This document shows, in pieces, positions 14,896 through 63,425 of a stretch of DNA of 64,000 nt. Source of the stretch: Meghimatium bilineatum (taxonomy: Eukaryota > Mollusca > Gastropoda > Stylommatophora > Philomycidae); assembly GCA_034231615.1 (NCBI GenBank), contig CM067299.1, forward strand, positions 18,070,498-18,134,497, written 5' to 3'. The first letter of the stretch is position 1. The number at the start of each line of letters is the position of its first letter. Both the position numbers and the translations under genes were made by a program. The notes beneath the pieces were generated by a model. The model was given only the letters and a program-made list of their open reading frames with translations. It ran no database searches and was not told the DNA's origin.

Positions 14896-15465
14896 AGTCC
14901 ACATCCGAGGATACCAAACATTTCAGAATGATAGAGAAAAAAAAGACAGAAAGGTGGAGTTCTTATACTGGCCAAAAATAATATCGTTGCCTCTGAAATC
15001 CGAGTAAACACTGAAGAACAGACTGAAATATTTGAAATCTGATTAACCCTTACAACTAAAGAGGTTACAGTATATAGTTATTATTGTCCACAAGACAAGA
15101 ACCTATCTCTGCACACAATTAACACAGAAAAAGATACATGTCTTGTGGTTGGTGACTTTATTAGCCACTCACAGAGTTGGGGATATACAGAACAAGATAC
15201 AATAGGAGAAGTGGAAGACATGACAGTGCAATGAAATTTCAACTGCTTAATGAACCCGAAGATCACCGAACTGACTACTTTAGAAGATGGCACACCACCT
15301 CAATCCCAGAACTAACCTTTGCAACAGACGCTCTAGCCAAAATAACATACAGGGAAGTGCTGGAACAGCTTGGTGGAAGTGACCATCGCTCCATCAAACT
15401 CACCATTGACATTTTCCACACTCCTGCTGGCCCCACAACCACACCTAGATGGAACAACATCTAGT
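14896..15465 (+). pseudogene. Jockey-type non-LTR retrotransposon, endonuclease (EEP) domain fragment
   Basis: First frame: IRGYQTFQNDREKKRQKGGV, LILAKNNI, then a stop, VTVYSYYCPQDKN and VVGDF-SHSQSWGY (the GDFN-x-H motif of the AP-endonuclease-like domain). After a frameshift near 15225: WHTTSIPELTFATDAL and GGSDHRSIKLTID (the catalytic SDH motif). It ends at PRWNN, where a tandem array takes over. Probably the same element class as the pol relics at 43-50 kb. Confidence 0.82.
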
Positions 15466-16535
15466 ATGTCTTTAATAGACGAACAACATCTAGTTTGTCT
15501 TTAATAGACGAACAACATTTAGTATCTCTTAATCCACGAACACCATCTAGTATCTAATTAATACACGAACATCATCTAATATCTAATTAATCCACGAACA
15601 TTATCTAATTAATCCACCAACACCATCTAATATCTAATTAATACACGAACATCATCTAATATCTAATTAATACACGAACACCATCTAATATATAATTAAT
15701 ACACGAACATCATCTAATATCTAATTAATACACGAACATCATCTAGTATCTAATTAATACACGAACATCATCTAATTAATACACGAACATCATCTAATTA
15801 ATACACGAACATCATCTAGTATCTAATTACTCCACGAACATCATCTAATATATAAATAATACACGAACACCATCTAATATCTAATTAATACACGAACATC
15901 ATCTAATATCTAATTAATACACGAACACCATCTAATATCTAATTAATACAAGAACATCATCTAATATCTAATTAATACACGAACATCATCTAATATCGAA
16001 TTAATACACGAACATCATCTAATTAATACACGAACATCATCTAATATCTAATTAGTACACGAGTATCATCTAGTATCTAATTAATACACGAACATCATCT
16101 AGTATCTAATTAATACACGAACATCATCTAGTATCTAATTAATACACGAACATCATCTAATATCTAATTAATACACGAACATCATCTAATTAATACACGA
16201 ACATCATCTAATATCTAATTAATACACGAACATCATCTAATTAATACACGAACATCATCTAATATCTAATTAATAGACGAACATCATCTAATATATAATT
16301 AATAGACGAACAACATCTAATATCTAATTAATAGACGAACAACATCTAGTATCTCCTTAATAGACGAACAACATCTAATATCTAATTAATAGACGAACAA
16401 CATCTAATATCTAATTAATAGACGAACAACATCTAATATCTCCTTAATAGACGAACATCATCTAATATCTAATTAATAGACGAACAACATCTAGTATCTC
16501 CTTCATAGACGAACAACATCTAATATGTCTTTAAT
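15460..16535. repeat. 29-bp minisatellite, about 40 units with 22-bp short variants
   Basis: Unit acgaacatcatctaatatct then aattaatac; the short variant lacks the second half of the taatatct section. The first units (gaacaacatctagtatgtct ttaatagac) overlap the last codons of the endonuclease fragment. Confidence 0.93.
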
Positions 16536-17039: not shown

Positions 17040-18245
17040 TATTTTCACGCGTGTAGTCAACTTGCTCACATAATAATATCTTCGTGTGTGTAGTCAGTCC
17101 ACTTGCTCACATAATAATTTCTTCGTGTGTGTAGTCCACTTGCTTACTTAATCGTATCTTCGTGTGTGTAGTCCACTTGCTCACATAATAATTTCTTCGT
17201 GTGTGCAGTCCACTTGCTCACATAATAATCTCTTCGTGTGTGTAGTCCACTTTCTAACATAATAATCTCTTCGTGTATGTAGTCCACTTGCTCACATAAT
17301 AATCTCTTCGTGTGTGTAGTCCACTTGCTCACATAATAATCTCTTCGTGTGTGTAGTCCACTTGCTCACATAATAATCTCTTCGTGTGTGTAGTCCACTT
17401 GCTCACATAATAATCTCTTCGTGTGTGTAGTCCACTTGCTCACATACCCGTCTTGTCATGTGTGGAGTCCACTTACTAACATACCCATCTTCTCATTGTG
17501 GAGTCTATGTATTCGCATGCTACTCTCCGCATGTGTAGCCCAATGGCTCACATTCGAATCTTCTATGTATTCTGTGTATTTCATTTGCTCACATATTAAT
17601 CTCATCACTTGGGAGTCAACTTACGCACATACTACTTTTCTCACATGTGAGTCACTCACATACCAATCTCCTCGGCTGTGAGTCAACCTGTTTACTGAAT
17701 AATCTCCTCACATGTGATTCCACTTGCTCACATACTAAATTCCTAATGTGCAGTAAACTTGCTCAAACGCTAATCTCCTCACCTGCTAGTCCAATTTTTA
17801 CACACGATAATCTCCTCACCTGTGAGTCCAATTTTTACACACGATAATCTCCTCACCTGCGAGTCCAATTTTTACACACGATAATCTCCTCACCTGTGAG
17901 TCTACTTGCTCACATACTAATCTCCTAACCTGTGAGTCTACTTTCTCACATACTAATCTCATCACCTGTGAGTCCACTTGCTTACATACTAATCTCATCA
18001 CCTGTGAGTCCACTTGCTCACATACTAATCTCCTCACCTGTGAGGCAACTTGCTCACATACTAATCTCCTAACCTGTGAGTCTACTTTCTCACATACTAA
18101 TCTCATCACCTGTGAGTCCACTTGCTTACATACTAATCTCATCACCTGTGAGTCCACTTGCTCACATACTAATCTCCTCACCTGTGAGGCAACTTGCTCA
18201 CATACTAATCTCCTCACCTGTAAGTCCACCTGTTCAAATGCTAAT
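17040..18245. repeat. Compound 37/36-bp minisatellite
   Basis: 17040-17450: tcttcgtgtgtgtagtccac plus ttgctcacataataatc (37 bp). 17460-17780 is a diverged transition. 17780-18245: acctgtgagtccacttgctc plus acatactaatctcctc (36 bp). The shared cacttgctcacat core shows one origin. The 36-bp part is open in frame on the minus strand (VCEQVDSQVRRL); not considered coding. Confidence 0.9.
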
Positions 18246-19120
18246 CTGATTATCATCTCCAGTGATAACCTGCATTCATAACGCATAGTTTTATAACAAG
18301 TCTTACATTGTAACTGCCAGCATATAACCAAAAGTACTGCTGTCTATCGTTGAAAGCAGACCCCACTGGAAGACGTAAATAACCCCGCTTCTAACGATAT
18401 TCCAATATCAGGCCAACTACAGTCCAGTTAACTTGCGTTCAGTTGACCTATGTCAAGGTTGATTTAAGACGTGTCTATAGTAGAAGATAAAATACCAACC
18501 CAGTTATGATTATGCTGCCTCTTTGTGAGGGCAAGAGGGCAACAATACTCATATGAGGTCAACGCGTGGGGCGTGCCATGTCGACACAGCATATTCTGAT
18601 ATATTTAATTGGAACTCTACATGGTGAAATCGCAGACTTTCTGAATTTGGTAAGAAATTTGGAGCCAATGAACGCACGCATATAAAGGGGGAGGGGTGGT
18701 GGATGGTGGTGTTCAATTCTCTCTTCCCCCCCCCACTTCCAAAAATATAACATGACATTTAGTGCTAGTGAGCAAGTAAAAATGAGGAAAACACCCCCTC
18801 CCCGACGTCTTTCTTTCGTAATCGGTTCTCCCCCCCCCCACCCGATTATAAAAAAAAGAAAAAAAGATGATTACAGATATAAAGAAATACGAGGTGATTA
18901 ACTGTTTCTGTAAACCCTCACCTTTACCAAGGTATTATCTACAGAACTGAGCCAAATGTATATAAAATAAAATGTAAATTGAGGCATTATGTCACCATTG
19001 ATTTTTAGTTTGGCTATAGATTGGGTAATGAGAAAATTCGCTCCAAATGAGTACTTTGATATTACGCCCTGATATAACAAAGAAGGAACTCTTTGTTAGG
19101 TTGAAAGAGCGTGTCTTGGT
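18246..19120. other. Unannotated non-coding stretch
   Basis: C-runs near 18725 and 18830 and an A-rich tract at 18850; no gene seen. Confidence 0.5.
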
Positions 19121-19623: not shown

Positions 19624-19723
19624 NNNNNNNNNNNNNNNNNNNNNNNNNNNNNNNNNNNNNNNNNNNNNNNNNNNNNNNNNNNNNNNNNNNNNNNNNNNNN
19701 NNNNNNNNNNNNNNNNNNNNNNN
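19624..19723. other. Assembly gap (100 N)
   Basis: Exactly 100 ambiguous bases, the conventional length for a gap of unknown size. Confidence 0.99.
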
Positions 19724-21566: not shown

Positions 21567-21646
21567 CGGTGGATCGCTCGGATATAATTGACCAATATCA
21601 TCGACAAGGTTACTGTCAGGCTGGCTTTTCTGCAGTATTTTCGAGT
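21567..21646 (+). CDS. Integrin alpha exon A (first of two alternative CQAGF exons)
   Basis: 80-bp exon with acceptor ccttctag and donor gtaagt. It starts with two bases completing a codon and ends on a codon boundary. The translation contains VDRSDIIDQY followed by HRQGYCQAGFSAVFSS, matching the integrin alpha segment just before the GAPGS-YWQGQ strand; the RSDI piece resembles the CRSDI element common before this cysteine. It splices in frame to the exon at 42318. Exon B at 36083 repeats its 3' part. Of the 16 shared codons, 6 are identical, 7 differ synonymously and 3 change the residue, which indicates selection on both copies. It is longer than exon B by exactly six codons at the 5' end. 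Confidence 0.87.
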
Positions 21647-24600
21647 GTAAGTCATCAGTTGTCTATCTGTACGATATACTGTTTGCATGATTAGTATTAC
21701 TTGTACGTAGTACTGTATTTTCTCTTTGTGAGTTCGTGTATGTATTTTAAAATATTTCTGTATACTATGAAGACATATGCTCTGAGTTGCATTATTTGCA
21801 CGCCGTACTGCTCTGAGAAGAGATATTTTGTAATACATATTACAAAACTATAAATATAATGGAGTCCATTCTCTTCTTTTTTTATAGCAATTTGAGCCTT
21901 TTCTATTTGTTTGTATGTAAGTGTGTGTGTGTGTGTGTACGAAAGTGTAAAAGCATATGTCAGTCGTAAATCCTTTAAACTCACACATTTCGAGTGTCAA
22001 AAATAGGTCGAGAACAAAATGTTATAACAGTTTGTGTTTTAATTTTAAGCTGTTGGTATGCACCAGGGTCGTGTCATGACATGATGCAGAGAAGCGGCCG
22101 CATCAGGCGGATCAATCAAAATAAATTTAAGGGACATCATTTCGAAGACCTGTATCTCACCTAATACTTTGGGTCTTTGTTACCTCTAATATTTTATGGT
22201 AGTGCATCTTGATATAGCTTAATTGGATTCTATTGTCCGCTGGTTGAAAAGAGCGCGCCTCTCCAAAGTAGAGCTAAACTCATTTACTACCTACCTAGAC
22301 TTAAATTATATGGAGAAAATCTACTGGAGCTGGTGTGCACGATTGGTGCGAAGCTTTTTGAATCCTAAATGTCAGTATTTTTGGTTAGTGTCCTGATTTT
22401 GATTATAATTAGTATATGTAGGGTTAAAATAGGTGGTTTGGACTTTATTTTAGGTTTAGTTTTAGATCAAGGTTTGGAATCATTAACCGTGATTAACAAC
22501 ATAGTTAGCAACTGAAAACATCATTTTGTTATTTTATATATAGAAGATACATTAATATGAGGATAAATCCATAGTCTCCTGTGTATGAAAGAAGCACTGA
22601 GAAACTACCCCACTTCACATAGGAAGTAAGAGCACGTTTCTCGCAATTTCAGAGGATAGCAAATAACAACAGCCATTTGAGACCTGTAACTAAATGTGTG
22701 TGCCCAGGATACGTATGACATTCTCCGTAGTTGGAACATGCTTGAGATCTGTTATTGACCTTGTCATCTTCAGCACATCTCCGTAGTGGGAGCAATGATT
22801 GAGATCTATGTTATTGATCCTGTCATCTTCAGCACATCTCCGTAGTGGGAGCAATGATTGAGATCTATGTTATTGATCCTGTCATCTTCAGCACATCTCC
22901 GTAGTGGGAGCAATGATTGAGATCTATGTTATTGATCCTGTCATCTTCAGCACATCTCCGTAGTGGGAGCAATGATTGAGATCTATGTTATTGATCCTGT
23001 CATCTTCAGCACATCTCCGTAGTGGGAGCAATGATTGAGATCTATGTTATTGATATTGCCATCTTCAGCACATCTCCGTAGTGGGAGCAATGATTGAGAT
23101 CTATGTTATTGATCCTGTCATCTTCAGCACATCTCCGTAGTGGGAGCAATGATTGAGATCTATGTTATTGATCCTGTCATCTTCAGCACATCTCCGTAGT
23201 GGGAGCAATGATTGAGATCTATGTTATTGATCCTGTCATCTTCAGCACATCTCCGTAGTGGGAGCAATGATTGAGATCTATGTTATTGATCCTGTCATCT
23301 TCAGCACATCTCCGTAGTGGGAGCAATGATTGAGATCTATGTTATTGATCCTGTCATCTTCAGCACATCTCCGTAGTGGGAGCAATGATTGAGATCTATG
23401 TTATTGATCCTGTCATCTTCAGCACATCTTGAAGGTCGCAAGGATGTCTTAACAGTCACGATGCAGTTAGAAAATGTCTCCACTCGTGGCATTGTACTAT
23501 ACACTGTTATGCGACCCACTAGATTCAAAGAAAGCTTTAAGAAAAATGTATTTCACACTGTTTACTTTACTGTGTGGTCTTATCATAATTCTCTTTTTCT
23601 TCTTCTGCGATTAGTTTCCTATGCACAGAAGTCTATACAGACTGAAGGACGTATCCATGAAATCAATTTCAACAATATATCCTCACGTTTGTCACACAGC
23701 TTCACTTCCAGTTCTGTCTCTGGGAGAGGGGGGCAGGTTTCAGTCGTCAAGTAGATTTGGACCCATTTGACCATGACCAGTCTCCAGGAAAGACCTGTGT
23801 ACAGAATGTAAACAATGCCTTCAAGTCGGATTTTTATTATTTCCGTGCATTTCGTTTGTCGGACTTGGTTTTGTGGCATGCGACTCTAAGTTTATAAATT
23901 GGTGACCAACGAAAACACGACAATAATAAAAAAGTAACAAATGAAGGCTTGTTTACTTTCTGTACAGTGGTGTTTACAGCCGACCTTCTCGTTTTTGACA
24001 TGGACATTAGTCCTTTTGGATAATCTTTATTTTGTTGAGATGTGTATGTACTCTACAGTGTCTAGTGCAGAGCCTAGAGATAGCAGTTTTCTGTTGATCT
24101 GTTCAGCTTTAGAATGGAGTTCAGTGGAAATTTGCTGCCTCCGTGTATATTTGCGTGTCTTATTTTGATGGAATATTTTGCTTCAGTCAATAATATTATG
24201 TGATGGAATTAATTAAAACTGTGAATTCTAATTAATACAAACAAAATCTACTTATATATGTCGTTGAATTCACTGAGATTGAAATTGTATAGTTGTAGAA
24301 TAGCTTACACCAGCTTACACATAGAATACATAATGTACTTGAATTTTAGAGAGTGAATAAGACATATTTTATATAACAGTGCGCTAAAAAGGATGTTGAA
24401 GAAAAAAGTAGTATGGAGAAGTTAATTGATTTCATCTCTATACATATTTTGAACAATTGCAAAATGTTTGTATTTCTTTTCTGGTGTATCTAATTGGCTT
24501 TATTTCCACTTGTTTTCTGCTGTCATGTTATAGTTGACCATCTTAGCCAATAGCCTATATACGTTTATTATACAAGGAGTTTGCACACATATGCATGCAA

Positions 24601-29900: not shown

Positions 29901-32900
29901 GTGCACCTGGACCGTTCATAAAGCAATGGCAAACTGTTAAACATATTTATATTGCCTAAGAAAATTACTACAGCCAAAAAATGCTGGGTTGGTGGCTACG
30001 TCTTGAATAGGACACTGTAGCAATAATAAACTTACATACGCGGTTTCTGTATCGATGTTGTGGCTTTAATTGGTTGGTGGTTTCTTTTCTAGTGGACAAT
30101 CTCGACATTTAAAAATTGTCTTATGTATGTGTGGTTGTATAAGGCATTCATGAGATTAGTTTTCAGGTTTGTCTCTACAAATGTGTGTGTATCTGACAGA
30201 TATCTTTACATAAATATTCTCCATGTTCTAATTTTAGAAACGGATATTTCACTAACATGTTCGAATTCTCGTATAGATATAGTAAAATATATAAACATCT
30301 ATGTACAACTGTAACATAAATATATACAACCAGGTATAGTTGGAGCTGCGATCGTTTAGCTGCTAGTGCATGCTTTTTCCTAGTCGATGTTCCACGTTTC
30401 ACCATCTCACGACTCATAGGTCGACGCAGTCCAAGAAGAAGATGGACCATGACCACCTGAGGTTATTGACCTCCAAACAGAATTCAGTACGACGTCATTG
30501 GTCGCGTTTTTTATTATTGTCATGTTGTTCATTGGTCACTATTTATATACTTGGAGTCGCATGTCAAATATAGTCAAAGCGATTCTGAGCATATAAATAG
30601 GGACCAACGAAAATAACGACAATAATAAAAAATGTAACGAATGAAATCCTAATTAATTGCGTGCAGATGTCTTTACTGTAGAAGAATGTGAATGGACAAC
30701 ATTTATTCTGGTAAAACGAAGATTGCGGGCGTGATACTGATTACATCATTTCTAGATAGGCCGAAGTTAGCCATATGAACTCAACAACACATTCTCGTAT
30801 ACACTAGAAGTCACCCACAGAGAACAGTAATAAATTTCTTGCGGAATGTATAGCAGATGTGAAAACATGAGTTAATTACTAACCTGCAATGCTGGTACAC
30901 GGACATTACAAAAACTGGAGTTAATTACTAACCTGCAATGCTGGTACACGGACATTACAAAAACATGAGTTAATTCTAACCTGCAATGCTGGTACACGGA
31001 CATTACACAAACAGGAGTTAATTAGTAACCTGCAATGCTGGTACACGGACATTACACAAACTGGAGTTAATTCTAACCTGCAATGCTGGTACACGGACAT
31101 TACAAAAACATGAGTTAATTCTAACCTGCAATGCTGGTACACGGACATTACAAAAACAGGAGTTAATTAGTAACCTGCAATGCTGGTACACGGACATTAC
31201 ACAAACTGGAGTTAATTCTAACCTGCAATGCTGGTACACGGACATTACAAAAACATGAGTTAATTCTAACCTGCAATGCTGGTACACGGACATTACAAAA
31301 ACAGGAGTTAATTCTAACCTGGAAAGCTGGTACACGGACATTACAAAAACAGGAGTTAATTACTAACCTGCAATGCTGGTACACGGACATTACAAAAACA
31401 GGAGTTAATTACTAACCTGCAATGCTGGTACACGGACATTACAAATACATGAGTTAATTCTAACCTGCAATGCTGGTACACGGACATTACAAAAACATGA
31501 GTTAATTCTAACCTGCAATGCTGGTACACGGACATTACAAAAACAGGAGTTAATTACTAACTGCGATGCTGGTACACGGACATTACAAAAACAGGAGTTA
31601 ATTACTAACTGCGATGCTGGTACACGGACATTACAAAAACATGAGTTAATTCTAACCTGCAATGCTGGTACACGGACATTACAAAAACAGGAGTTAATTA
31701 CTAACCTGCAATGCTGGTACACGGACATTACAAAAACAGGAGTTAATTACTAACCTGCAATGCTGGTACACGGACATTACAAATACATGAGTTAATTCTA
31801 ACCTGCAATGCTGGTACACGGACATTACAAAAACATGAGTTAATTCTAACCTGCAATGCTGGTACACGGACATTACAAAAACAGGAGTTAATTACTAACT
31901 GCGATGCTGGTACACGGACATTACAAAAACAGGAGTTAATTACTAACCTGCAATGCTGGTACACGGACATTACAAATACATTAGTTAATTCTAACCTGCA
32001 ATGCTGGTACACGGACATTACAAAAACATGAGTTAATTCTAACCTGCAATGCTGGTACACGGACATTACAAAAACAGGAGTTAATTACTAACTGCGATGC
32101 TGGTACACGGACATTACAAACAATTATAGGGCCTGGCCTACAACTTGGTGCCAACACTACAAACTTGGATTAATTATTACGGGGTTTAAGAAAGCAAGAT
32201 TAATCAATTAGATCTGAAATACAAAAACTACAAATCATGGTCATAGACGCGAACTTGCTCACTAGAATTCTTTTTCTGAAATACATGAAATTTAAATATC
32301 TTTTCACTGTTTCAAAACCGTGGGGAAAAAGGGGGGGGGGTATAGAGCTTAGATAAGACTTTGGTAAGGGGTGGGGGACGTTTTACCTAATATAATTTTT
32401 TTTTTTTTTTTGGGTTTCCGTTGAACTTTTTGTAACCCTTTTTTTTGGTTAAACTATTGGGTAGAGAAAGGAGAGGGGGCTGATCTGCTTTTTTGTGTTT
32501 CCATGTACTAAATGTCATATTCCTTCTTCTTAAAGGGGGGGGGGAGTGGTACGCTGTTATATCTGTATTTATGTCCAGCTTTCTGTCTTTCCGTCTCTCT
32601 GTCAGTTTGTATGTTTCTCTGTCTGACCTCGTATGTATGTCTGTCTCTGTTTGTCTGTTCTTCCATCTCATCAAGTAGGGGGCATTTATTCAAGGGCAGA
32701 CACTCTTACAGTACTGAGAATACTTAAAAACGAGTGCGACCATCCAGACTGCTGTAGCCATAAGTGTATTCTGTTATGACAACACCCAAGGGAGGTGCAT
32801 ATTTATGTAGTTCATAGTCAGCTTGCTAATATTCAAAAGTGCATGTCTATATGCAAGAATATACTATGCATTTTGAAACTTCACCGCAATAGTTGACTGT

Positions 32901-35900: not shown

Positions 35901-38900
35901 GTCTTTGCAGTACCGCATTCTCATGTACATATACATATATATGTTTATGTGATATGTATAACTTAGCGGTAGTTCTATGTAAAAAGCATATAGTATAGTA
36001 AAATCTATCATTCATTTGCCTTGGTGTGCTACAGCGATAGATGTTGTCTTGACATGCTGTGTGTTTGTGTGTGTGTCTACAGACCAGTGGGGTTTTCATC
36101 GACAAGGTTACTGCCAAGCTGGGTTCAGTGCCGCATTGTCTCCAGTACGTGAGTCATCTCTCTAACATAACCCTTATGTCCCCCATAAGAACTTTTTTAA
36201 AAACTATTAGCAATATTACAGGTTCACAAATTCTGGGTTTTGTGTCGCACATTATGAGAACTGTTCATACCGTTAGTTATATTACAGGTTCACAAATTCT
36301 GGGTTTTGTGTCGCACATTATGAGAACTGTTCATTCTGTTAGCAATATTACAGGTCCACAAATCCCGCACACTATGAGAACTGTTCCTACTGTTAGCAAT
36401 ATTACAGGTTCACAAATTCTGGGTTTTGTGTCGCACACTATGAGAACTGTTCCTACTGTTAGCAATATTACAGGTCCACAAATTCTGGGTTTTGTGTCGC
36501 ACACTATGAGAACTGTTCCTACTGTTAGCAATATTACAGGTCCACAAATTCTGGGTTTTGTGTCGCACACTATGAGAACTGTTCCTACAGTTAGCAATAT
36601 TACAGGTCCACAAATCCCGCACACTATGAGAACTGTTCATATTGTTAGCAATATTTCAAGTCCACAAATCCTGGGTTTTGTATCGCACACTATGAGAACT
36701 GTTCCTACTGTTAGCAATATTACAGGTCCACAAATCCTGGGTTTTGTGTCGCACACTATGAGAACTGTTCCTACTGTTAGTAATATTACAGGTTCACAAA
36801 TCCTGGTTTTTGTGTGGCACACTATGAGAACTGTTCCTACTGTTAGCAATATTACAGGTTTCCAAATTCCGCACACTATGAGAACTGTTCATACTGTTAG
36901 CAATATTTCAAGTCCACAAATCCTGGGTTTTGTGTCGCACACTATGAGAACTGTTCCTACTGTTAGCAATATTACAGGTCCACAAATCCTGGGTTTTGTG
37001 TCGCACACTATGAGAACCGTTCCTACTGTTAGTAATATTACAGGTTCACAAATCCTGTTTTTTGTGTGGCACACTATGAGAACTGTTCCTACTGTTAGCA
37101 ATATTACAGGTTCACAAATTCCGCACGCTATGAGAACTGTTCCTACTGTAAGCAATATTACAGGTTCACAAATCCCGCACACTATGAGAACTGTTCCTAC
37201 TGTAAGCAATATTACAGGTTCACAAATCCCGCACACTATGAGAACTGTTTCATCATTTCAAGAAGACATAATAATAAATGGAGAGTTAGTGAGATTCTTA
37301 CATATATTTTATGATATTCAAACACTCAACCCCCCCCCCCCAAACAATCAGAACATGAATTTTAGTACTATGAGTGAAAAGGTGAGTAACCCGTATTCCC
37401 CATATTCTCCCTCTTCTTTAAGTTCTCCCCCCTCCCCCTTCTTTACGTTTCTCTCCAAAAAAGTGATTAATTTCCTGGGAGAAAAAAATAAGAGAATTAC
37501 ACGAAAACGGGCGAATGTCTTTTTTAAGGAACTAGATAAATACCCCCTACCCCCTGACTAATGACGAATATACCGCCCTGATTATGTTAACAGTATAATA
37601 ATATGTGCGAATAATATATATATATATATCAATTATTTAGAAAATGTAGATACTAAAGCATAAGTTTTTGTGAAACAATCTCAAAAAAAAATAGCTATAA
37701 AATGTTCGTAAGGAGATATTTTAGTCTGTTAATAAAAAATGCAGAAATAATAAATGTTGAAAACAGATGTAGCATTATGAAATAATCATCAAGAGATGAA
37801 TAAGTTCAGTCTGTAAGAGAATACCATCGATAGAAGAGATATCATTTGATGAAGGAACGAACTCAGAATGATGGAACAACATTGGGTCTGAGTTGATTGT
37901 TGCTGCTGCAAACGTCACTAGTTTATGTGTATGGTACTGCCCAATCTCCTATTACCATTTTACGATTAAGGGTCAGCTACCAGTTAGGATACAGTTATCA
38001 GAAGTCGACTCTGCCGATAGATAAGTGTCTTTAGCATTATGACTTCTTGGTCAACTAGGAGGAAGTCCACTTCAGGAATGACTCATGGTAACCATCCCTT
38101 CTTGTTTTTCTTTCGGGGCGTGTATGTGAGAGGCACTTTTGTTCCTTCGACATCGGACGCCATCACTTGTTCAATACTCTTTGAACATGTCGACCTTTTG
38201 TTCCCACCTCAACACACGTGTAACACTCATTGAACTGTGCTGCAATTTTGTTGCTACTAAATCGCGTGTGTAATATTCTTGAACAGCGTCGCACTTTTGT
38301 TCCTACGTCATCTGTCGTCATCACGTGTGTAATACCTCATTCAACATCATCATCATTAAGTGCCGTCTCCACAACGAAGGTTGGCTGCAACGTATCTCCA
38401 ACATCTCCTGTCTCTTGTCTTGGTGGTGCACTCTGCTAGACTGTAACCTGTCCATCGTGTGATGTTACTCTCCTACTTGTATCTCTGCCTACCCCTTGCT
38501 CGTCTCCCTTTGACTTTCCCTCAAAATCATTCAACAGCGTCACACTAATCTCAAACACGGAGACTAAAAGATTACATTTGTTTTTATTGTTCTTGATTCT
38601 TCCTAGAAATATAATGCCGTTTTAATTACATTGGGTCAAAGGGCATGAGCCCATGGACCGCTAGATCAGCAACCATTGTTGTTGGTCGTCAATTTTCCAG
38701 TTACTGTTTGGTAATATGATATAGTGCAGACAACGGAATGTGTTATTTCTTGACAGCTGAACTTTTAACAAGCCACATCCGGCTTCAGCATGCCGTTATA
38801 AACCAATTTGACATCCTCATGGATAAGATATCTAATCCCAATTACAATCATTAGTTCTTCTTCATCTTCTTTAGTGTTATTCTCAAAGTCCCGCCGGATC

Positions 38901-42019: not shown

Positions 42020-45000
42020 AGAACTCGAGTACAATATAGTCAATCATCTACACCACTTGGACCATTTCTTAAACAATAAAATACAAAAACAGACAACGTT
42101 TCATCTAAACAGCATGTATCACAACGAAAAACGATCAACAAACAACGATGTGCCGTATATTTCCGTGTTATTAATGTCATTACTATTGCTAACACTTTCC
42201 ACGTGTTTGATTATCTCTGTCCAATAATCACCAAAAAATGCGTGTTGATATAATTTACTCAAATTATGAGCCATTTGTTTATACTTGATATATGGCGTAG
42301 TTTTGTGTTCGTTGCAGGATGGCAGAAGGCTGTTGATCGGTGCTCCTGGTAGTTGGTACTGGCAAGGTAAGTGTTTAACTTCTTAGTTGACATTTAAATA
42401 AAAATAATATATTAATATTCTACGCTCATTTATGAAAATGTTAGTTGTGTTTTGAGTGAAATTAAATCGTGAAGCGTATCTTGTATAGCAATGTTTCTCA
42501 ATTTCTTTGTTACCGCAAAGCAGCAATTTCTTTCCCAATCTGCTAGGGTCCGGTGTGTGTATGTTGAGTTTCAAATATATTATATAATGTATATAAGAAC
42601 TTTCACTGATGGCTTTGCGGAATTTCGGAAATATAACAAATGGCTTGCGGACCGGCATCGGAAAATAGACTGTCACTTTAAGAAACCCTCATATGTTTGA
42701 TTTACATAGCTAGAACTAATTGACAATTTTCTCATTTTGCAAGAAATTATTTCTACAACTTTTGTAGTTACGCTGTTGTTGCCTATTAGATGTATCTTCG
42801 TTGTGTGCACGCTGTTCTGCTTCATCCAGTTTCATATTTACAAGTACCCCGTGTCCTTTGTTGTTTTGAGCGGCCTCTTTTTCTCTTTTCTGGATTTCAA
42901 GATTATCATTTCCAACATGTTATGCATTGTTATCTGTCTAACATATATAAAATTGTTTTTCTGAAACCATTTTATTGTTATATTCACGTCTTTGCGAACA
43001 TGTTCGTCAGATTGGTTCCTGATAATTTAACGAATTTCTTTAGTATTTAATCTATTCCCTTTACAATAACTAAATTATCAGTAATAATGCTTGTAGTTTA
43101 ACTCGTTTATTTTATAAATAATAATGAATTGCTGGTTATAATCCTTGTCATTTATTATTTCCTGTAAGAACAATAATGAATTACCTGTTAAAATCATTAT
43201 ATATATATAATATTTCATTCTATGAACAAATAGTGAGGTACCCGTTATAATCTTAATATCTCTACTTTTCAATGAACAATATTGAAGTAGATATAAATGA
43301 ACGTGAGCCAATATCGAGAATGCGCGAATTGGGAGTGAGGATAGATGTAAACCAGTAGAGAAAAATTTAAAGATTTCTAAAAGAGCAGGGAACCGAAAAC
43401 ATCAGCCGTTATGCATTGAAAGATTTATTGAAGCGGAGATCTGAGAATCTATGGACATGTCCGATGTGCGAAGAGGATATTCAACATACGTAATATCTAA
43501 TATCTTAATCCTTGTACCCTTATTCTTTCATTTTATTAACAACATTGAATTTCTTATAGCAACCTCTGTACCCATTCTTCCATTTTATGAATAGTAGTGA
43601 AGTACCTATAATCCATGTACATCTATTATAACATTTTATGAAAAACAATGAATTACTTATAACCTTTGCTTATTTATTATGGATTTTATTCATAATAATA
43701 AATTATATGCTATAGTACTTCTATTTTTATTCGTTCATTTATGATTGATTCTTGATTCTTGATTAGGATCAAGCGTCACAGCACTGGTGGCATTCCCATA
43801 TATGCTCTGCTTGCCGTTCCGTCAGCTATCTAAAAGTGTATATTCTCAGTGTCCCAGTCAGTTGCTGATTACGCGTTCTTCTGATCTTTCTGGAGAGGGA
43901 GCACTTTCTCCATCGCCTGTAGTCACTCCCATTTCTATAATTCTCTGAATATGTACATTGTCTCGTTCGACTTCCTCCTCGTCTTCTCGTAGGTTATCCA
44001 TGACTGCTCTAATCAATTCAATCCTGTCTCTTCTTATCTCAGTGTCGTTCACCAAAGCCCTACCAGCCAACACATCGGCTCTTTCGTTTCCCCTGACCCC
44101 AGCATGACATGGACAGTAGATCCATGTAATGCTCTGCGCGTTTTTGAGAAGAGTGACCCATTCAGTTCGGATCAAACACTTTTCTATCTTGCGTAAGCAT
44201 ACTTTGAGAATCCGATAGAATCACTGAGTCTGTTGGTGGTTGCATCGCCAGCCAAGTGAGAGCTGCCGTCACCGCTTCTATTTCCATTCTCATACTCGAT
44301 GTTGTAGTGAGGTACGCATCTTACTTCTCAGCTAATTTCTTGCCATTTTGGTAGGCCACGAAACCCCAACCACACCTGTTTGTTTTTTTGTGCTACTGTG
44401 CCGTCTGTGTTAACTATTGTATCGTGTAGCTTCGAGTACTGCAGTATGAGTTCTTGGAGCATTCCCTCTGTTCTGTTTGCAGCCCAGTCGCGGCACTCTC
44501 TTCCCATGTGTATCACAACCGTTGTCAATAACTTTCTCTTTGCCAAATGTCACCCATTCACAGCCTCTTCCCACTTCCTCCAGCTCACAAACTCTGAGTA
44601 GGGTATCTTCTGCTTCTGCCATCCAGGACCTTCCTCTCTTGATACGCCTTCCTTTTGCTTTGTCTAGAGATTTGTGTTAGAGGTGAATATCATTCTTGGC
44701 GACCTTGAAGTATTCTTTAACTTGGGCTACGTTATGTCTTGATTTGATGCCCGGAAGGTCTAGGAGAAACCTTATGGTAACGATAGGTGTATCTCTTGTG
44801 CATCCTAAGACAGCTCTCATGGCCTCGTTTTGAACTCTCTCCAATGTATCCACCATTTGTTTGCGACAGTGTCAATAAACCTAAAATATAGTCCAACACA
44901 GATAATACCACTGCTTGCATCATCTTAAAAAGTGTTCGCTGCGGCATCTCTGCAGATGCCATGATTTGACTGCACTGACACCATTCCCATTTTTCTTAAT

Positions 45001-48000
45001 GATATTGTCCACATGTTTCGCGACAGATAGACTTCTATCAAAGGTGATACCTAGATATTCCGTAGTCTGCTCCCTGTCAATTTTGATGTCCATGCAGGAG
45101 ACTGCTGGTAATGTGTCTGTGACTATGTTGTTGTTCAGTGAGAACCAGGCAATGTTTACCTTGTTGGGATTGATGATTGCCTTGCAGTTAGTGCACCAGA
45201 GCGACACATCTTCTAGAATCTAGATTACTCTAGACGCCATCAATCATGTCTCTTCTGTTTCTGCCATGCTTGTACAGCAAGAGGTCATCTGCATATGTTA
45301 AAATCCTGCTGGTCATGTATGAACAATAGGCCTAATGAAGATAAGCTCATTATTTTATTGTAAACATCCGAGGGTAGCAGGCAGGAAGCGGTTCAGGTCT
45401 CGAAACAGATAAAATGCTGATAGCTTCAAAAGTTGTAGTGACCATTGTCATGTTCTCCAGACGGTACCACGAACCGTTTAGCACATCTTAGAATATATAT
45501 ATATATGTGTATGCCGCAAGGAACCATTTTTCAGATGATGCAAGCAGTGGTAGTATGGTCTAGGTTTGCTTACACTGTCGCAAAATACAGGTGGATAGAC
45601 TGGAGAGAGTTCAAAACAAAGCCATGAGAGCTGTCTTAGGATACACAAGAGATATATTGCTGCTATGCGGTTTCTCTTAGACCTTCCGGGTATTAAATTA
45701 AGACATAACGTAGCCCAAGTTAAAGAATACTTCAAGGTCGCCAATAATGATATTCACCTCTAACACCAATCTCTAGACAAAACAAAAGGTAGGCGTATCA
45801 AGAGAGGAAGGTCCTGGATGACAGAAGCAGAAGATACCCTACTCAGAGTTTGTGAGCTGGAGGAAGTGGGAAGAGGCTGCGAATGGGTGGCAGTTAGTAA
45901 CGATATAAAGTGATTGACAACGGTTGTGATACAGCTGGGAAGAGAGTGCCGCGATAGGGCTTCCAACAGAACAGAGGGAATGATCCAAGACTCATCCTGC
46001 AGCACTCGAATCCACACAATATAATAATTTTCACAGATGTCTTGGTAACACAAGAAACAAACAGGTGTGGTTGGGGTTTCGTGGCCTACCAAAATGGCAA
46101 GAAATTAGTTGAGAAGTCAGATTCGTACCCTACTACAACATCGAGTATGAGAATGGAAACAGAAGCGGTGACAGCAGCTCTTACTTGGCTGGCGACGCAA
46201 CCACCAACAGACTCAGTGATATCAGACTCTAAATGTATGCCGCACAAGATAGAAAAGTGTTTGATCAGAACTGAATGGGACGCTCTTCTCAAAACCACGC
46301 AGAGTATTACATAGATCTATTGTCCCGTTCATGCTGGGGTGAGGAGAAACGAAAGAACCGATGTTGTGACTGGTAAAGGTAAAGCTTTGATGAGTGGGAC
46401 TGAGATAAGAAGAGGGACAGGATTGAATTGATTAAAGCAGTCATATATACCCTACGAAAAGACAAGGACTAGGTCGAACGAGACAATGTACATATTCAGA
46501 GAATGGTAGATTGGGAGGGACTAAAGGAGGCGGGAGAAAGTGCTACCTTGTGGAAAGATCAGAAGAACGCGTAATCAGCAACTGGGACACTGAGCTTATA
46601 CACTTTTAGATGACTGACGGAACGACAAGCAGAGAAATATATGGGAATGTCCCCAGTGCTATAACGCTTGTTCCTAATCAAGTGTAGCACCTTTATAATG
46701 GCTCCCTAATGTGCAAAGAGAAGCACAGAACTGTTGTCACCCATGACGTGTGTTTATTGAGAACACGCCATAGGAAAATTGCCAAATGGATTGGTTTAAC
46801 TGATTAACCTGAGCCGAATTCAACAGTTATATTTATAAACTATACGAAAAAAAGTCGACTAATTAGAGAAATATTTATAAACTATACGAAAAAGTCGACC
46901 AATTAGAGACAATATTGGCATCGTAAGTTAATCAAATAATTATAGTAAGCCACAGAATTAAAATTTAAATATACTTCTGACAAAGCGGCAAGCCTAGTTT
47001 CCTGATACAATACGGTTTTACGGTGATGGAGGAAGTTGTTCGACATTTAAAGTTCAAAGTAATGAACTTAGAGGTGCCCGCACATTCCTTCAATTAGCTT
47101 TGAAATTGTATTACAACGGCGTTGGAATATTCCGTTTTTTGTGTGTTTATTTTTAAAGCATTAAACGATTTTTACGTTAGCGAAGTAATGATTAAGCGAT
47201 ATTTATTTTCGTATAAAATTTTGCCTTTGTCTTGAAGTCTATATTGTGTGTGGTATTTATTAGCTGGTATTTTGTAAAAGTTAATGTCTGGTGTACCGTC
47301 GATCATTCACTTCTGTTACCTCCATGTTACCCACATGCTACCTCCATGTCAGAAATGACAGAATTACAATTGGTGAATTAATTGGAGGTAGCAGGAATGA
47401 GTGTGTGTTGTTGTTTTTTTTTGTTTAAACAAAAAAAGTAATATAAGAATCTTCTTTCTTTCTTTTTCATTTCGCTTTATATGCATTTTATGTCTTGCAG
47501 CGTCAGCAGTTGAAGAGTTCTCTGGAGCTGACTTTTGTGTGTGCTTCATATATGTTTCTCTCTTCTTCTTCAGCGTTCATTCTCAAACTCCCGCTGGATT
47601 TCTCTTGTAACAGGACAATGATCCTACAAGATTTCCAGTTGAATGTAGTCCAGAGAATGGAAATGCGTTGTGTTGCCGTTTTATTTGCGCCAATGGCCCA
47701 ACACATCCGTCTTCGGCGGTTCATATATGTTTATTTTCGTTGACTCTTTTATTTCTGTAATCCATCGTTTGCAAGGTCTGCACTGGCTCTGTAACCATCG
47801 TGTCTGCATAGTAATGCTTTTTGAGGGGAACAGTCTGATATTAGTCTGGAAGCATGTGAAAACCACTTAATCTGTTGTCTTCTGATGTAATCCAGGATTG
47901 GCATTGGGTTTGTTAGTCTTCTGATGTTTTCGTTCCTGTTTCTGTCTCTTATTGTTACTGTGTAGACATTCATAAAAAGAGAGGGGTCAGATGGCGCGGA

Positions 48001-51000
48001 TTAAAATCCGGCTCGTGAATTCTTGTTTAAAAATTTCATTCTTTCAGAAATCCCTATGGATTATCGCATGTAGCTACGAATGCAGGTGTTATGAGTGGTA
48101 TTCTTGGCTGCTAGTAGCTGCGTACCGATAGGGAGAGATGTAGATGAATAAGATCAATCATCTACGCTTTTTAAATGTTTATTTCAATAGATTTCACCGA
48201 AGACGGATGTGTCTGGCCATTGGCGCAAATAAAACGGTGACACAACACATTTTCATTCTCTGGACTACATTCTGCTGGAAATCTAGTAGGACCATGGTCC
48301 TGCTACAAGGGAGATCCAGCGGGAGTTTGAGAATTAACGCTGAATAATAATAATAAAAATTTCAATAGATAAAGAATGTATTGCAGAATGTAACACATTG
48401 ACATGAAATTTGAGAACCACTGAACAACACCTTCTATATTGAGTTGATAACCATCTATCAGCTGCATCAGACAGCACCGGCTGTTTATAAAATAACAATT
48501 TGCTCCCAATGTTTATAACATGTGTTTATAAATGTTTAAACATAAAGACAATTAAAATAAATCATTGTTGTTAATGTATATGCCATATTAACATAAACAT
48601 AGACCACAGATTGATAGACAATGTAAAACAATAAAGAAACAAGGGGATGATAGTTGGTTCACGTATACACTGGAACATCTGGTTCAATCCGGCAAATTTT
48701 GTCTTTCTGTGTAAAGGAACCAGACATTACATTATGTATATTTATGTGAAGATCTTCCTAAGAATCTTCCTGGCATAGTAGTTAGGCCGTACGCGTTGCT
48801 AACAATACATTGTGCCTTCCTGTGTGAAGACACCTACAGATACAATGTGTGTTCAAATATAAGACAAATACAAATACATTGTTCCTTTCTGCTTGAAGAC
48901 ACCAACATATACATTTGTGCCTTCCTGTGAAGACACCTACCAATACATTGTATCCTGTGTGAAGACACCCACAAATACATTGTTCCTTCCTGTGTGAAGA
49001 CACTCACAAATACATTGTGCCTTCCTGTGTGAAGACACCCACAAATACAATGTGTGTTCAAATATAAGACAAATACAAATACATTGTTCCTTTCTGCTTG
49101 AAGACACCAACGTATACATTTGTTCCTTCCTGTGTGAAGACACCCACAAATACATTGTTCCTTCCTGTGTGAAGACACCCACAAATACATTGTTCCTTCC
49201 TGTGTGAAGACACACACAAATACATTGTTCCTTCCTGTGTGAAGACACCTACATATACATTGTGCCTTCTTGTGTGAAGACACCCACAAATACATCGCGC
49301 CTTCCTATATGAAGACACCTACCAATAAACTACATTTACTTATATGAAAATCACCTTTGCAACCTCTCGATTTTTCACATCAGATTTGGATACGGGGAAT
49401 TTCCATTCATGTAGATATTTAAACTTATATATTCTCAGTGACCCAGTGAGTTATTGGTTGTGACTTCTTCTAGTATTTCCAGAGAGGACTCGCTTCGTTC
49501 CCTCTCCCTTAGTCACTCCCATTTCTATCATTCTCTGAATATGTACATTCTTTCAGCACCCTCTACATCGCTTTGTAGTGTATCTGTGACTGTTCTAATT
49601 AACACAGGTCAGTCTTTTCTCATCGGTTTGCCATCCACTATAGTTTTAGCTTTCAATGTATCAATTCGTTCTTTACCGTGCATGATATGGACAGTAAATC
49701 CAGTTAAGAAGAGTATCCCACTCCACCTACATCATGCATTTTCCTGTCTTTGCGCAGAATACTCTTAGAGTCTATGTGGGTGTTGGTAGTTGCGTCGTAG
49801 ACCAAGTGAGAGCAGTTGTAACTAATACTCTTAGTGTCTCCGTGGGTGTTAGTGGTTGCGTCTTAGACCAAGTTAGAGCAGCTGTAACTGCCTTTATCAC
49901 CATTATGATGCTTGCTGTTGCGGTAGGATATGAAGTATATTTTTCGACAACTATCTTGCGATTTTGGTAGCCGACGAAGCCACATCCGCATTTTACCGTT
50001 TCCGCTACAACTGAGCCATCTGTGTAAATAATTATATAGTGTAGCTTTGAGTACTGTTGTGTGATTTCTTGCATCATTCCCTCAGTGGACCATGAAGGCC
50101 CCTATTTAATCCACGGTTGGGACAGGATTTCTTCTTTCGGAAGTACAATCAAAATCCCTCGTGTAAATGTTGCGCCATCTGCTATATCAAAGCGGCCTTT
50201 ATTTCTACAGCCCATAAAAAGCCTCCATGCACTCCTTCACAGGAAAACATACAGTAACCAAAGATTCCCTCAGCCTTGGTTGCAGCCACATGGCGACACA
50301 CTCTCCCCAGTTATATCACAACATTCGTCAAGGACTTTCTCTCTTTATTTACTTCCATCCATTCACACTAACTTCCTGCTTTTTCTAGACTCTGAGTAGA
50401 GTATAGTCTGCCATCCAAGACTTTCCTCGTTGGATGCGCCTTTTGTATATGGCATCTAGAGGTTGTTGTATAGACTGACGGTCATTTTTGGTAAATTTAA
50501 CGTATTCTTTTACCTACGCAACTGCATGTTTTACCTTGATGCTGGTTACTTTTAGAATCAAACTCATGGCAGTAATTTATGCTCGGTCAATGAATACTGA
50601 CCACAAGGTAGTACCCCAACACTGAAGTCAGCCATCCCAATAATGTCCTCAACCAACATGTAAGCTTATTTAAAACAACAGAAAAGGCTATAAGTCCATA
50701 AGTGAAATGTAGTGAAGAACGCGGTTCTGTTAATCCAGTCACCACGACCCCCGAGTTCATAAACAGTGTTGCCATTCTGTGCTCCCCTTTAAAGCCCCGG
50801 TAACACAGAAGCGAGGTAGTATTTAATTTAAACACACAAAAATCAACACAATAATAATGTCGATTAACAGATCATAGTGACATAACCTTGCACCCATGTC
50901 TAAATTTGTGTTATTTTGAACTAAAAATTTGTTTTATAGAACATAGATTACAACATATTCAATTTCAAGCTGATGGCTCGTGCTTTGGGTGTTTATCTGT

Positions 51001-54000
51001 AGAGTGTTTTGGGTGTCTATCTTATTTGGGTGTTTATCTTATTCATCTTGTTTTTAATGGTACATTTGTTGTTTGATGTTTTATTTTCTGCGTTCGCTTT
51101 TGTATGTCGACTGATATTTCTTTCTTGGAATCTAAGTAATTTTAACGTGAAAACGTTATAAAGTTAGTTTCACAGTAAAACTGCGATATTGGCGTCTTTC
51201 TGTTTAGCATATCTTATTTAGGCAAGTAGTACTCAAGCACGTGAAGACCCCCCAACACATCTGCAGGGCAGCGACTCTGTATCGAGTCCATATCTAGAGG
51301 AGGTAGGAAGTTCATTTCTTGTATCCCTCCGCACTGAAGATTTGTCCGAGACAGTAGTTCAGGCGATCACATGCCAGGCGATATCTTTTAGCGTAGCCCC
51401 TCAAAGCAAAAGTTCCTCAATGTAGCCCCTCAAATCAAATCTGTGTTTCTTGTTCTGTTCCTTCTCAAATTCCGACGGGATGCAGTACGGAGAAAGGAAT
51501 TGCGCCTTTCGATCTAACACATCCGTTGCTTCTCTATGGGATTGTACCCACCCAGGGCCGGTCTTAGGCCATTGCAACCTATGCGGCCGCATTGGGCCCC
51601 GCACTTCATAGGCTCATAAATTAATATTAGAATTTATTTTATTATCCTCTTCCCTACCCAGACTGGGCCCCGCGCAATCCGTTTCGCATTGGGGACCGGC
51701 CCTGTTAGGACCGGCCCTGTACCCACCCCCCAAAAACCCATCCTTAGTCGCTTCTTACGACATACATGACAAGTCACAATTCTCCTATTCTTTGCTCCTA
51801 TTTATAGCGACATTATCAATACTATGCATTATATCTTTCAATGTGGTAACTTAATATACTGTGTTTTATTTTTTTTCTTCGCACATTCAGAGTCCTCTAG
51901 GCCAGTGTTTCCCAACTTTTTTTTAACCATGCCCCAGCTAAGTCTTTCTAAAATTCTGATTTCCCCCCCCCCCCCCCCAAGTTACATATACATATTTTTT
52001 ATTCAAAAATTGTATTATTCCCCCATGAATTGCCCCCTGAACAATCAAATTGCCCCCCTGAACAATCAAATTGCCCCCATGTGTGGCGTGGGCCCCACGT
52101 TGGGAAACACTGCTCTAGGCGAAATCTGTTCTAGTCATCTGATCTTGTTCTAATCATCGGTATTATAGCTTTTGGATCGCCTACTAAGAAGAACCTGCAT
52201 TGATAAGCATAAATGAAGTCAAGAATATAGTTATAATATGACTGCCTCAGACTTCGCCTTTCATCGGAAATCCCGTCTCTCACCACAGCTGAGAAAATCC
52301 ATCATGATCTATAACCTAGCTTCATACACCAATATAAAAGCTTGACGTCTTTTCTAGATTTATTAGTTATAATTTCAGGGTTGGTTCTCAAATTCCCGCT
52401 GGAAATCTTTGCAGCCTGATAATGTCTCCTACCAGATTTCCAACAAGATGTAGTCCAGAGAACGGAAATGAGTTATTATTGCCATTTTATTTGCGTCTAT
52501 TACCCTACACATCCAACTTCGACGGGGGTGAATAATACTTTCATTGTTTTACTAATTTCACTGTATGGTGTACATCTGTAACCATATCGCTTCATACTGC
52601 ACGCTGGTCTCCAATCTGAAAATGTCCCACAGTCATTACTTGCTGTATTTCAATATCTGCTTTCTTATTGAAAACCATATCTGTATTGTTTGCTAGTGTC
52701 AGCTTTAAGCTCGTTCTGGCCGTGCTTTGGTTCGTTCTGACCGGCCATGATCAAGTTTGCTATTGAATGTACCGTAGTTACAAATATGTTCAAACTTTTC
52801 CATTCGTTACTTCTATGCTGTAATTCATTATTATACTCATGTTTACATTGTCATTATTATTGTCTTCTATTTGACCGATATCTCTAATCTACTGTATGGT
52901 ATTTATATGTTTTGCTTTGTTATACAGTGAAAATGAGCAACCAAAAAAGAGGGGATGTAACCAAAAATACTTTTTAAAAAATGTCTTTGAAATTCTGAAG
53001 GACGCTGTAGAATTTATTGCTAACAGCCAAAAATGTTTTCTTAACTGCAAAAGAGTGGTTGCTTTTGAAATGAACCTTCTTTTCGCCTTCACTGTCGAGT
53101 CCAATATCAAATGTTGACCACGAGTACTGTATCCGGTAGTCCATTTTGTTAGGAACACTGTTTTCAACTAGCAACATCTGAGACTTGCCAACATCTGAGC
53201 TTTATCATAATTTCCTCTATGTGACTGTTTAGCATGGAAGTTTACAGCTTGGCTGAGATATCGTATAATCATTTCGAAGCTCAGGGAGCAGTGCATATAG
53301 TCTTTTTAGATCAGTCTGGCGGGCCAGTTAAAATGGCTTGGTGGACTGAGCTGACCCTCGGGTCGTATTTTACCTGCACCTCGGTTAAATGCATATTTTG
53401 ATTTCAACAAAATCGATATTATTCTGTTTGGTGGTCTTGTGTGCAGAGTCATAGCACACTATATTAAACAGCTTCAAAGTGAATTTTACTGTCCCGCAGG
53501 CATTGTTGCGTGTTTACTGAATTAGCATATTTTGATGTCTCTATGTTTTACCCAGGCCAGTTGTTCAACTACAAAACAGATGATGGCGGGAAAAGCTTTA
53601 GTTCCACGCCTGAAGGAAGGCCGGAAGACGATGACACGTACATGGGTAAGCCAGCTTGTTACTTAGTCACGTGTTACTAACGTCTCTAACCTTTTGTTTC
53701 AACACAGGTCAGCTTTTCCAATACGATGCCACAAGTGGTCAGAAAGTTAAAGAAACCAAAGAGGGTCCGACAGATAATGATTACGGTTACTTGGGTAACA
53801 TTTTCCAATCTGGCAGTTTTCGTATTTGACTGAAATGTACATTGTTTTCGGCTTTGGGTCGATTTCTGTTCCGATTCTTAACTTTTTTTTTTTAAATTCC
53901 AAATTATAATTTCTGCTATTTTTTTTTTATTCTGCGCATAAACTTCAAAATTTGTTTTTAATTGCTTTATGTGTAACACAAGTGTTCTTACACACTTTTT

Positions 54001-60000: not shown

Positions 60001-61317
60001 CCTGGAACTTTTCCCTCCATGAATAATTTTTCTAAACCGTTGTATACTAATATTAGAAAAGACAAACTCATTATCCTATTATGTTTTGATATATAAAAAT
60101 AAGTATCTTAAATTTCCGACAATGTGATATGCTTACAAATAGTTGATACATCATTGGATTAAATAAATGCTGACTTGTTGACATTTTAATCCGCTTTTCC
60201 ATTGAAATATCAGGGTATGCTAGTGCCATTGGAGAGTTTGATGGAGATAGTAGTGATGGTAAGTTACAAGTACAAGCTGTTATGTTTCTATATGTTTAGA
60301 GAAAATTGTTTTAGATAAAATAATGAACTCTCTCCCTCAGTCTCTCACTTGTTTGTTTCATTTTTCGGTCATAGAATGAGCTTTATTCATGATTTAGAAC
60401 CAATACTCACGTGGAAGACAGGTAATGAAGTGTTTTGTTTTGTTGTGTATACTATATCAATTCATGTAAACATCCGTCAGTGATAGTGTGTTAGTCGTCA
60501 TCAAGTAGAACTTCATTACCTGTCTTTCACGTGAGTATTATTTTCAATTATGTTCTACTAGCAGTACTCACTTCTATTGATTTAGAACACACCCGTGTGT
60601 TGTCGAGGCCCGAAAGGGGAGCAAAGAATAGCAACACTATTTACCTTCAGCGCATGTCGTAAAAGGTGACTAAGGAGGTTATGGGATGGAGTTGGCTGTC
60701 CCATCCCATATTGGGTCAGAGACCCAAAGCCATGCTGAAGTCGGATGTGTCAGGCCGAAAGGCGCAGATATCGCAGCTATGCTGTAAACCTTGACACAAC
60801 GCAATCCGTTCTCCGGACTACATCCTGCTAATATGTAGGAGTTTGAGAACGAACGCAGAAGAAGAAGACGAAGATTTAGAACCAGCGGGTCGGCATTGCG
60901 GTCAGTACCATAATTGTTCAGCTCTCCAGTCCATCCTCGGCGTCCCAATAAATTGTGATAATAGTTCCCTACAGCTTCATGTGGCATGCAGATAAATGAG
61001 CATTGCGTTTGTGTGTACTTTAAGGCTTGTCTCAAACAGGAGCTCTGAAAATACTTCCACGTGATGAATCCTGGAAATATGTAAATTCATGGGTAGTGAA
61101 TAGTCTGTATATTTAACGAATAAGCCCCGCACCAGGAATGGGTTGATCTTCAGGGTGAGGGATGGACGGGTACAATCATTTATTCGATTTTTATCATGAG
61201 AGTCATTAAAGTACTAGATGGATATTTCATCAGAGCAGACGTAAGCTACCCAAGCCAAATTCTACTGATGAACGTTTTCTTTTCCATTTTCGAGAAAATG
61301 TACGATATTCAGTAAAT

Positions 61318-63149: not shown

Positions 63150-63425
63150 ATTAATTTAATTACAGGAACTAGTAACACACATTTAATTACAAGAACTAGT
63201 AACACGCATTTAATTATAAGAACTCGTAATACACATTTAATTACAAGAACTAGTAACATACATTTAATTACAAGAACTAGTAACACACATTTAATTACAA
63301 GAACTAGTAACACACATTTAATTATAGGAACTAGTAACCCACATTTAATTACACGAACTAGTAACCCATATATAATTACAAGAACTAGAAACATACATAT
63401 AATTACAAGAACTAGTAACACACAA
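63150..63425. repeat. 27-bp minisatellite downstream of exon F
   Basis: About ten units of ttaattacaagaactagtaa cacacat, starting about 35 bp after the exon F donor. The minus-strand ORF across it (LVLVIKCVLL) is a repeat artefact of the period being divisible by 3. Confidence 0.92.

Follow-up and report, generated by a model that had tools for sequence, protein, structure and literature searches.

Two pairs of putatively mutually exclusive exons, one of them an old tandem duplication, in a snail integrin alpha gene of the predicted RGD class

Several described systems resemble the locus reported here. ITGA7 carries the mutually exclusive extracellular exons X1 and X2, which alter its laminin preference, and an ACUAAC close to the X1 acceptor is the site of QKI action in mouse Itga7 (PMC8860092). 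In ITGA6, two beta-propeller exons are alternatively included, giving rise to X1-alone and X1X2 forms (PMC12564407). Drosophila betaPS contains one of two 29-residue exons, 4A or 4B, in a region of ligand preference, and alphaPS2 belongs to the RGD (Arg-Gly-Asp) class (PMC9218073). AlphaV grips the arginine of its ligand with Asp150 and Asp218, in a groove formed by two propeller loops (PMC3267166). Regarding the splicing mechanisms, exons are assigned to the steric-interference type if fewer than about 50 nucleotides (nt) separate the branch point from the donor, as for OGDH exons 4a/4b and a human class of such exons (PMC7969005, PMC5740500), and a frame-shift class of mutually exclusive exons has also been described (PMC5740500). 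Here we analyze a stretch of 64,000 nt (the window; G000:C2:18070498-18134497) from the 1.61 Gb, 32-contig genome of the gastropod Meghimatium bilineatum, with 100 kb added on each side, which contains part of an integrin alpha gene bearing the tandem exons C and D (Table 1).

We propose, with a probability of roughly 0.87, that C and D go back to an old tandem duplication, that they are used in a mutually exclusive manner in a snail integrin alpha of the RGD class, and that two further exons, A and B, constitute a second pair of this kind. An earlier note on the window had put C and D forward as alternatives; exon anatomy and relatives support them as such, whereas their exclusive use would follow from the splicing geometry considered below. 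The finding is real, conserved and larger than in that note, since it involves a double switch at the ligand groove of an RGD-class integrin. In our model, C or D would supply the same piece of the beta-propeller, with exclusive use arising from a steric block at the short intron between them, and A or B would supply the segment that in alphaV contains Asp150, with exclusion imposed by the reading frame. Up to four forms (A or B combined with C or D) could be produced, altering both stretches around the arginine groove, and ligand choice or affinity would probably change, much as the X1/X2 exons of ITGA7 alter its preference among laminins.

C and D are tandem homologues of equal phase, and either one fits between the constant exons E and F, their common neighbors. 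Their coordinates, the 1-1 phase and the shared neighbors had all been given in the earlier note and are borne out by the exon anatomy, the reading frame being open through both E-C-F and E-D-F. When aligned, the two exons are identical in 13/31 columns, with a score of 54 compared to a shuffled mean of 3.0 (standard deviation, sd, 7.3; 0/5000 shuffles as high). In a profile search of 264 kb on both strands, using frames of at least 20 residues and a profile built from 121 relatives and from the window exons C and D themselves, these two were matched at E about 1e-11 and no third C/D-like exon was found better than E 1.1. The position equivalent to Asp218 is invariant in 14/14 hand-chosen segments, C and D included. 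The end pattern D-x-Y-[ML]-G formerly ascribed to both exons holds for C but is inexact for D, which ends in D-Y-G-Y-L-G.

The 62-nt intron between the two exons contains a TACTAAC that begins at base 30, placing the candidate branch A 27 nt from the 3' splice site and leaving 34 nt between it and the C donor; a second branch candidate, CTAAC, lies just 3' of TACTAAC. At this intron length, a branch point placed over 12 nt from the acceptor necessarily falls less than 50 nt from the donor, and an ordinary one could hardly lie beyond the mid-40s. The shortest of the 25 other introns that were joined by best-scoring GT-AG pairs, in this gene alone, measures 1014 nt (25/25 at least 1014 nt). With the candidate A at +35, both in this intron and in the 58-nt intron of the paralogue described below, the distance to the donor lies under the 50 nt at which steric interference is called. 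Joining of C to D is very probably prevented by this 62-nt intron, in which only 34 nt separate the donor from the candidate branch point. The rule is derived from vertebrates, and a steric block of C-to-D joining is therefore graded as likely. In this regard, the perfect TACTAAC about 34 nt from the donor reported in the earlier note is confirmed, and the splice-blocking geometry deduced from it fits the steric threshold, with the reservation that this threshold is of vertebrate origin. Incompatibility between U12- and U2-type splice sites of C and D was considered and rejected, both donors being U2-like by eye.

When the genome was searched at the DNA level with C-D as the query, at least one other site besides the query itself was recovered, G000:C1:81005536-81005699 (-), the number of matches being a lower bound. 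This paralogue, located on another large contig, holds A', B', E', C', a short intron and D' in the same order and phase as in the window, with amino acid identities of 20/26 for A, 14/20 for B, 15/16 for E, 19/29 for C and 16/28 for D. The C'/D' intron has 58 nt and carries TACTAAT, with the candidate branch A again at base 35; the B' donor is identical to the B donor (GTACGTGAG) and the D' donor is GTAACA, as in D. The two copies have E-C introns of 11.2 and 1.7 kb, compared to 62 and 58 nt for the C-D intron, and the alignment of the latter between copies scores 19.5 versus 6.7 (sd 2.9) for shuffles with the ends held fixed (0/1000 as high). The paralogue is the best evidence that the short C/D intron itself appears to be kept by selection. 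Between the copies, the proportion of synonymous differences (pS), based on 13 to 18 synonymous sites per exon, is 0.35 for A, 0.78 for B, 0.58 for C and 0.80 for D, and that of nonsynonymous differences (pN) is 0.12, 0.16, 0.17 and 0.22, respectively; on these few sites each, A, B, C and D look to be held by selection at the protein level.

The relatives point in the same direction. We checked 27 lophotrochozoan proteins (25 named and 2 mollusc-like, picked from 197 fetched; models, not reads). A D-type segment without C is present in two of them, Lymnaea P0003 and Physella P0118, and a C-type segment without D in the remaining 25; no protein (0/27) combines C and D, each having one exon-sized segment, in a database that is clustered at 90% identity, so that isoforms are hidden, and from which one of three sets was 120 of 825. 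Both D-type proteins also carry A (n=2). In a tree of 30 columns, the window D exon groups with those of Lymnaea and Physella (96/93) and this group adjoins two bivalve exons (80/77), suggesting that D may be older than the gastropods. We no more than lean toward the independent origin of C/D supposed in the earlier note, which gains from the union of the three D exons but loses from their place beside those of bivalves; likewise, the molluscan phylogeny of C and D unites the D exons of snails but, with 30 columns, makes an older origin of D possible.

The exon preceding E is duplicated as well, as A and B, a pair absent from the earlier note. The lengths of A and B are both 2 mod 3, so that including both or neither would shift the frame into stops; A and B would be mutually exclusive by reading frame, and the pair fits the frame-shift class described in PMC5740500. 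The A-type motif VD...DQxHxQG is found in 7/197 fetched relatives, namely Lymnaea, Elysia chlorotica, Pomacea P0004, the bivalve Mya, the brachiopod Lingula, the nemertean Lineus and Physella, the last counted by a loosened motif only; most of the remaining relatives, among them the arthropods, look by eye like the WGYHRQG (B) type. Pomacea P0004 (A) and P0008 (B) come from contigs of equal listed size and have an identical C segment, which fits a single gene holding both exons, but they are 88% identical over 867 columns, which speaks against it; a second gene or a faulty model may be the alternatives. The presence of A and B within one gene is documented for this genome only, in both paralogues, and each relative shows a single form; the pair is probably older than the molluscs.

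The Lymnaea protein P0003, to which the window gene is 68% identical over 687 residues, scores 499 bits with alpha5, 496 with alphaV, 378 with alphaIIb and 327 with alpha4 at full length in the PDB, and 369 (alpha5), 357 (alphaV), 279 (alpha4), 249 (alphaIIb) and 220 bits (alpha6) with headpiece chains of about 600 residues. Its predicted structure (mean predicted local distance difference test, pLDDT, 77.6) finds its best fold match in alphaV-beta3. Because P0003 is closest to alpha5/alphaV and its model matches alphaV-beta3 best, the gene is assigned to the RGD class, in the alphaPS2/alpha5/alphaV group, RGD-ligand binding itself being predicted. In a tree of 21 proteins the window gene stands beside Bradybaena P0006 (100/99), with which it is 81.5% identical over 660 residues, and the other Bradybaena protein and Candidula fall in the same group (97/96); we take both to be stylommatophoran genera, so that the tree itself very probably places the gene in a stylommatophoran snail or slug.

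In alphaV numbering, the C/D segment corresponds to about Q182 to G223 and ends in the loop with the Asp218 equivalent. The A/B exon presumably spans the alphaV stretch with Asp150. In the P0003 model, the A segment is a low-confidence loop (pLDDT about 51-63) and the D segment comprises two strands and a loop. The exon switches would alter the surroundings of a kept arginine contact and likely change ligand choice or affinity, a notion based on the analogy with ITGA7 X1/X2 and laminins (PMC8860092). Both segments that hold the RGD arginine in alphaV would thereby appear to be swapped by two known devices, the reading frame for A/B and a short intron for C/D.

A number of points weigh against this double exclusive switch. 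E-C-D-F is likewise in frame, so that a protein with both C and D is possible. The threshold of less than 50 nt comes from vertebrate work and may not hold in gastropods, and introns of about 60 nt are spliced in some invertebrates. The lack of proteins containing C and D together is weak evidence, given the clustering mentioned above. By eye, A and B each carry His where alphaV has Asp150. No match between exon 3 and A was found for the constant exon expected to precede A (Lymnaea P0003 residues ~205-237), nor was any found in the gene region for the part corresponding to P0003 residues about 923-955; the paralogue does have a constant exon preceding A'. These two stretches limit the whole-gene frame to the joined parts, of which the one from A through the exon whose last base is 97682 is stop-free with either C or D. 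Finally, an additional segment at this site or close to it is accommodated in insects and in the X1X2 form of ITGA6 (PMC12564407).

Among the alternatives, the one that survives best concerns regulation. A STAR-family regulator (QKI/HOW) bound to ACTAAC-N5-TAAC over the D branch site would block D and leave C, which we regard as possible, if on balance doubtful; such a regulator could act jointly with the steric block and is therefore compatible with the explanation we prefer. The bipartite STAR/QKI consensus is ACUAAY...UAAY. In line with it, ACTAAC-GTCTC-TAAC (53676-53690) overlaps the branch site as a putative element of this type, and its counterpart in the C'/D' intron is ACTAAT-TTCA-TAAT, so that the motif is present in both paralogues; Itga7, where QKI acts on ACUAAC, offers a precedent (PMC8860092). 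The motif, however, doubles as a perfect branch point. An exact ACTAAC within 70 nt upstream of the acceptor occurs at A and D only (2/4 alternative versus 0/24 constant exons, a count over 28 acceptors made after seeing the data), but ACTAAY occurs at 4/28, two of them constant and both ACTAAT with nearby TAAY, and the ACTAAC before A is absent before A'. A conserved STAR motif at A was rejected, as A' lacks ACTAAY by eye. That one STAR-family (QKI/HOW-type) switch would set both pairs, mainly yielding A+D and B+C receptors in both paralogues, is a more speculative and rather unlikely extension; if true, ACUAAC-reading proteins switching integrin propellers would be a recurring solution in snails and vertebrates, and the A+D and B+C receptors would differ in ligand choice.

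If instead C or D were constant and the other one an optional cassette, C+D and one-exon forms would be expected, like those of alphaPS2 exon 8 and ITGA6 X1X2. C+D is in frame, and in 62/188 measurable relatives the site comprises 51-64 residues; among the matches listed, those that bear a name are arthropods. The long form, however, appears in 0/27 lophotrochozoan proteins (from the clustered database, where isoforms may be hidden), C and D are of near-equal length and both contain the invariant Asp218 position, in contrast to the shorter and different 25 residues added in insects, and the very short intron is kept in the paralogue, all of which render the cassette improbable. Competing RNA structures, in which a docking site and selectors would pick C or D, are less probable still: when the intron was paired with each of four 600-nt stretches, 24, 46, 79 and 11 of 100 mononucleotide shuffles did as well, and the local fold is no stronger than that of its shuffles. 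This candidate was rejected for want of any signal above shuffles, in a comparison within one genome where the duplex of upstream versus downstream flanks was computed without a control. That D is a decaying or never-used copy, as its weak donor GTAACA, without G at +5, might suggest, is very hard to reconcile with an exon that is open in both paralogues (pN 0.22 vs pS 0.80), has D-type protein models in two other snails and groups with their D exons.

The integrin alpha gene as a whole extends over about 155 kb, the first coding exon lying near -42.8 kb and the last near 111.7 kb (window coordinates). Its first coding exon lies within a recent tandem duplication (948 columns, 97.7% identity, copies ~4 kb apart). 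The introns are rich in minisatellite arrays with units of 27-66 bp; the array at 30862 carries repeated TTACTAAC, and raw window counts of TTACTAAC are therefore inflated. Two copies of broken open reading frames (ORFs) resembling a non-LTR (long terminal repeat) retrotransposon, with RNase H-like and other fragments by eye, lie in opposite orientation. Elsewhere, a further integrin-alpha Ig-like match, at G000:C1:102344556-102344732, is interrupted by one stop; it probably represents an exon of some other alpha gene, with the match continuing beyond the exon boundary. An Rfam scan of the window returned no match.

Table 1. Features of the integrin alpha locus and its paralogue (window coordinates unless a contig is given)
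Feature	Position	Strand	Description
Exon A, alternative	21567..21646	+	80 nt, phase 1-0, VDRSDIIDQYHRQGYCQAGFSAVFSS
Exon B, alternative	36083..36144	+	62 nt, phase 1-0, QWGFHRQGYCQAGFSAALSP
Exon E, constant, upstream neighbor of C/D	42318..42366	+	49 nt, phase 0-1, DGRRLLIGAPGSWYWQ/G
Exon C, alternative	53556..53645	+	90 nt, phase 1-1, GQLFNYKTDDGGKSFSSTPEGRPEDDDTYMG
C/D intron	53646..53707	+	62 nt, donor GTAAGC, acceptor ACACAG
TACTAAC, candidate branch site of D	53675..53681	+	branch A = intron base 35
Exon D, alternative	53708..53794	+	87 nt, phase 1-1, GQLFQYDATSGQKVKETKEGPTDNDYGYLG
Exon F, constant, downstream neighbor of C/D	60214..60258	+	45 nt, phase 1-1, YASAIGEFDGDSSD
Paralogue exons			A' 80 nt, B' 62 nt, E' 49 nt, C' 90 nt, D' 93 nt
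100-N assembly gap	19624..19723	.	may hold the constant exon preceding A
First-exon tandem duplication	G000:C2 ~18027689-18028634, 18031731-18032667		= window -42808..-41863, -38766..-37830
Minisatellite arrays	30862-32120, 15452-16526, 17096-18247, 22722-23429
Minisatellite arrays, further	36203-37229, 48804-49327, 63154-63424
Retrotransposon-like ORF fragments	about 43850-44900; about 45500-46600	-; +

When compared with the described systems, ITGA7 X1/X2, which we take to be placed after the same W-x-G junction, is of the laminin class, whereas the snail gene is RGD-class, has a 62-nt intron and possesses the additional A/B pair. The X1/X2 site of ITGA6 presumably corresponds to the snail C/D site; ITGA6 makes a form with both exons, whereas none with both is present among the 27 lophotrochozoan proteins. 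Insect alphaPS2 (inflated) belongs to the same gene group and has the same junction after GSWYWQG as snail C/D. It differs, however, in that insects have long and short forms, with or without 25 residues, which we take to be exon 8, ahead of a constant C-type exon: an extra segment in insects, two near-equal exons in the snail. The insect alternative exon thus looks like a cassette rather than one of a mutually exclusive pair. The precedents invoked in the earlier note hold in part, as the junction is the same in alphaPS2, but alphaPS2 adds a segment and ITGA6 makes X1X2 (PMC12564407); moreover, C/D is not the first RGD-class case, alphaPS2 being already RGD-class (PMC9218073). The betaPS exons 4A/4B are likewise alternative in an integrin, but in a beta subunit and as an unrelated exon. 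Regarding the splicing geometry, the branch points of OGDH are distant from the acceptor, whereas the snail branch A lies 27 nt from it. Our literature search on molluscs and gastropods found no account of integrin alternative exons.

The two diverged copies, together with the A-type in gastropods, a bivalve, a brachiopod and a nemertean, provide a natural test of splicing-tuned ligand choice, and also of why this propeller site is alternatively spliced in insects, vertebrates and snails. Taken together, the double switch is a variant within the known repertoire of integrin propeller splicing.
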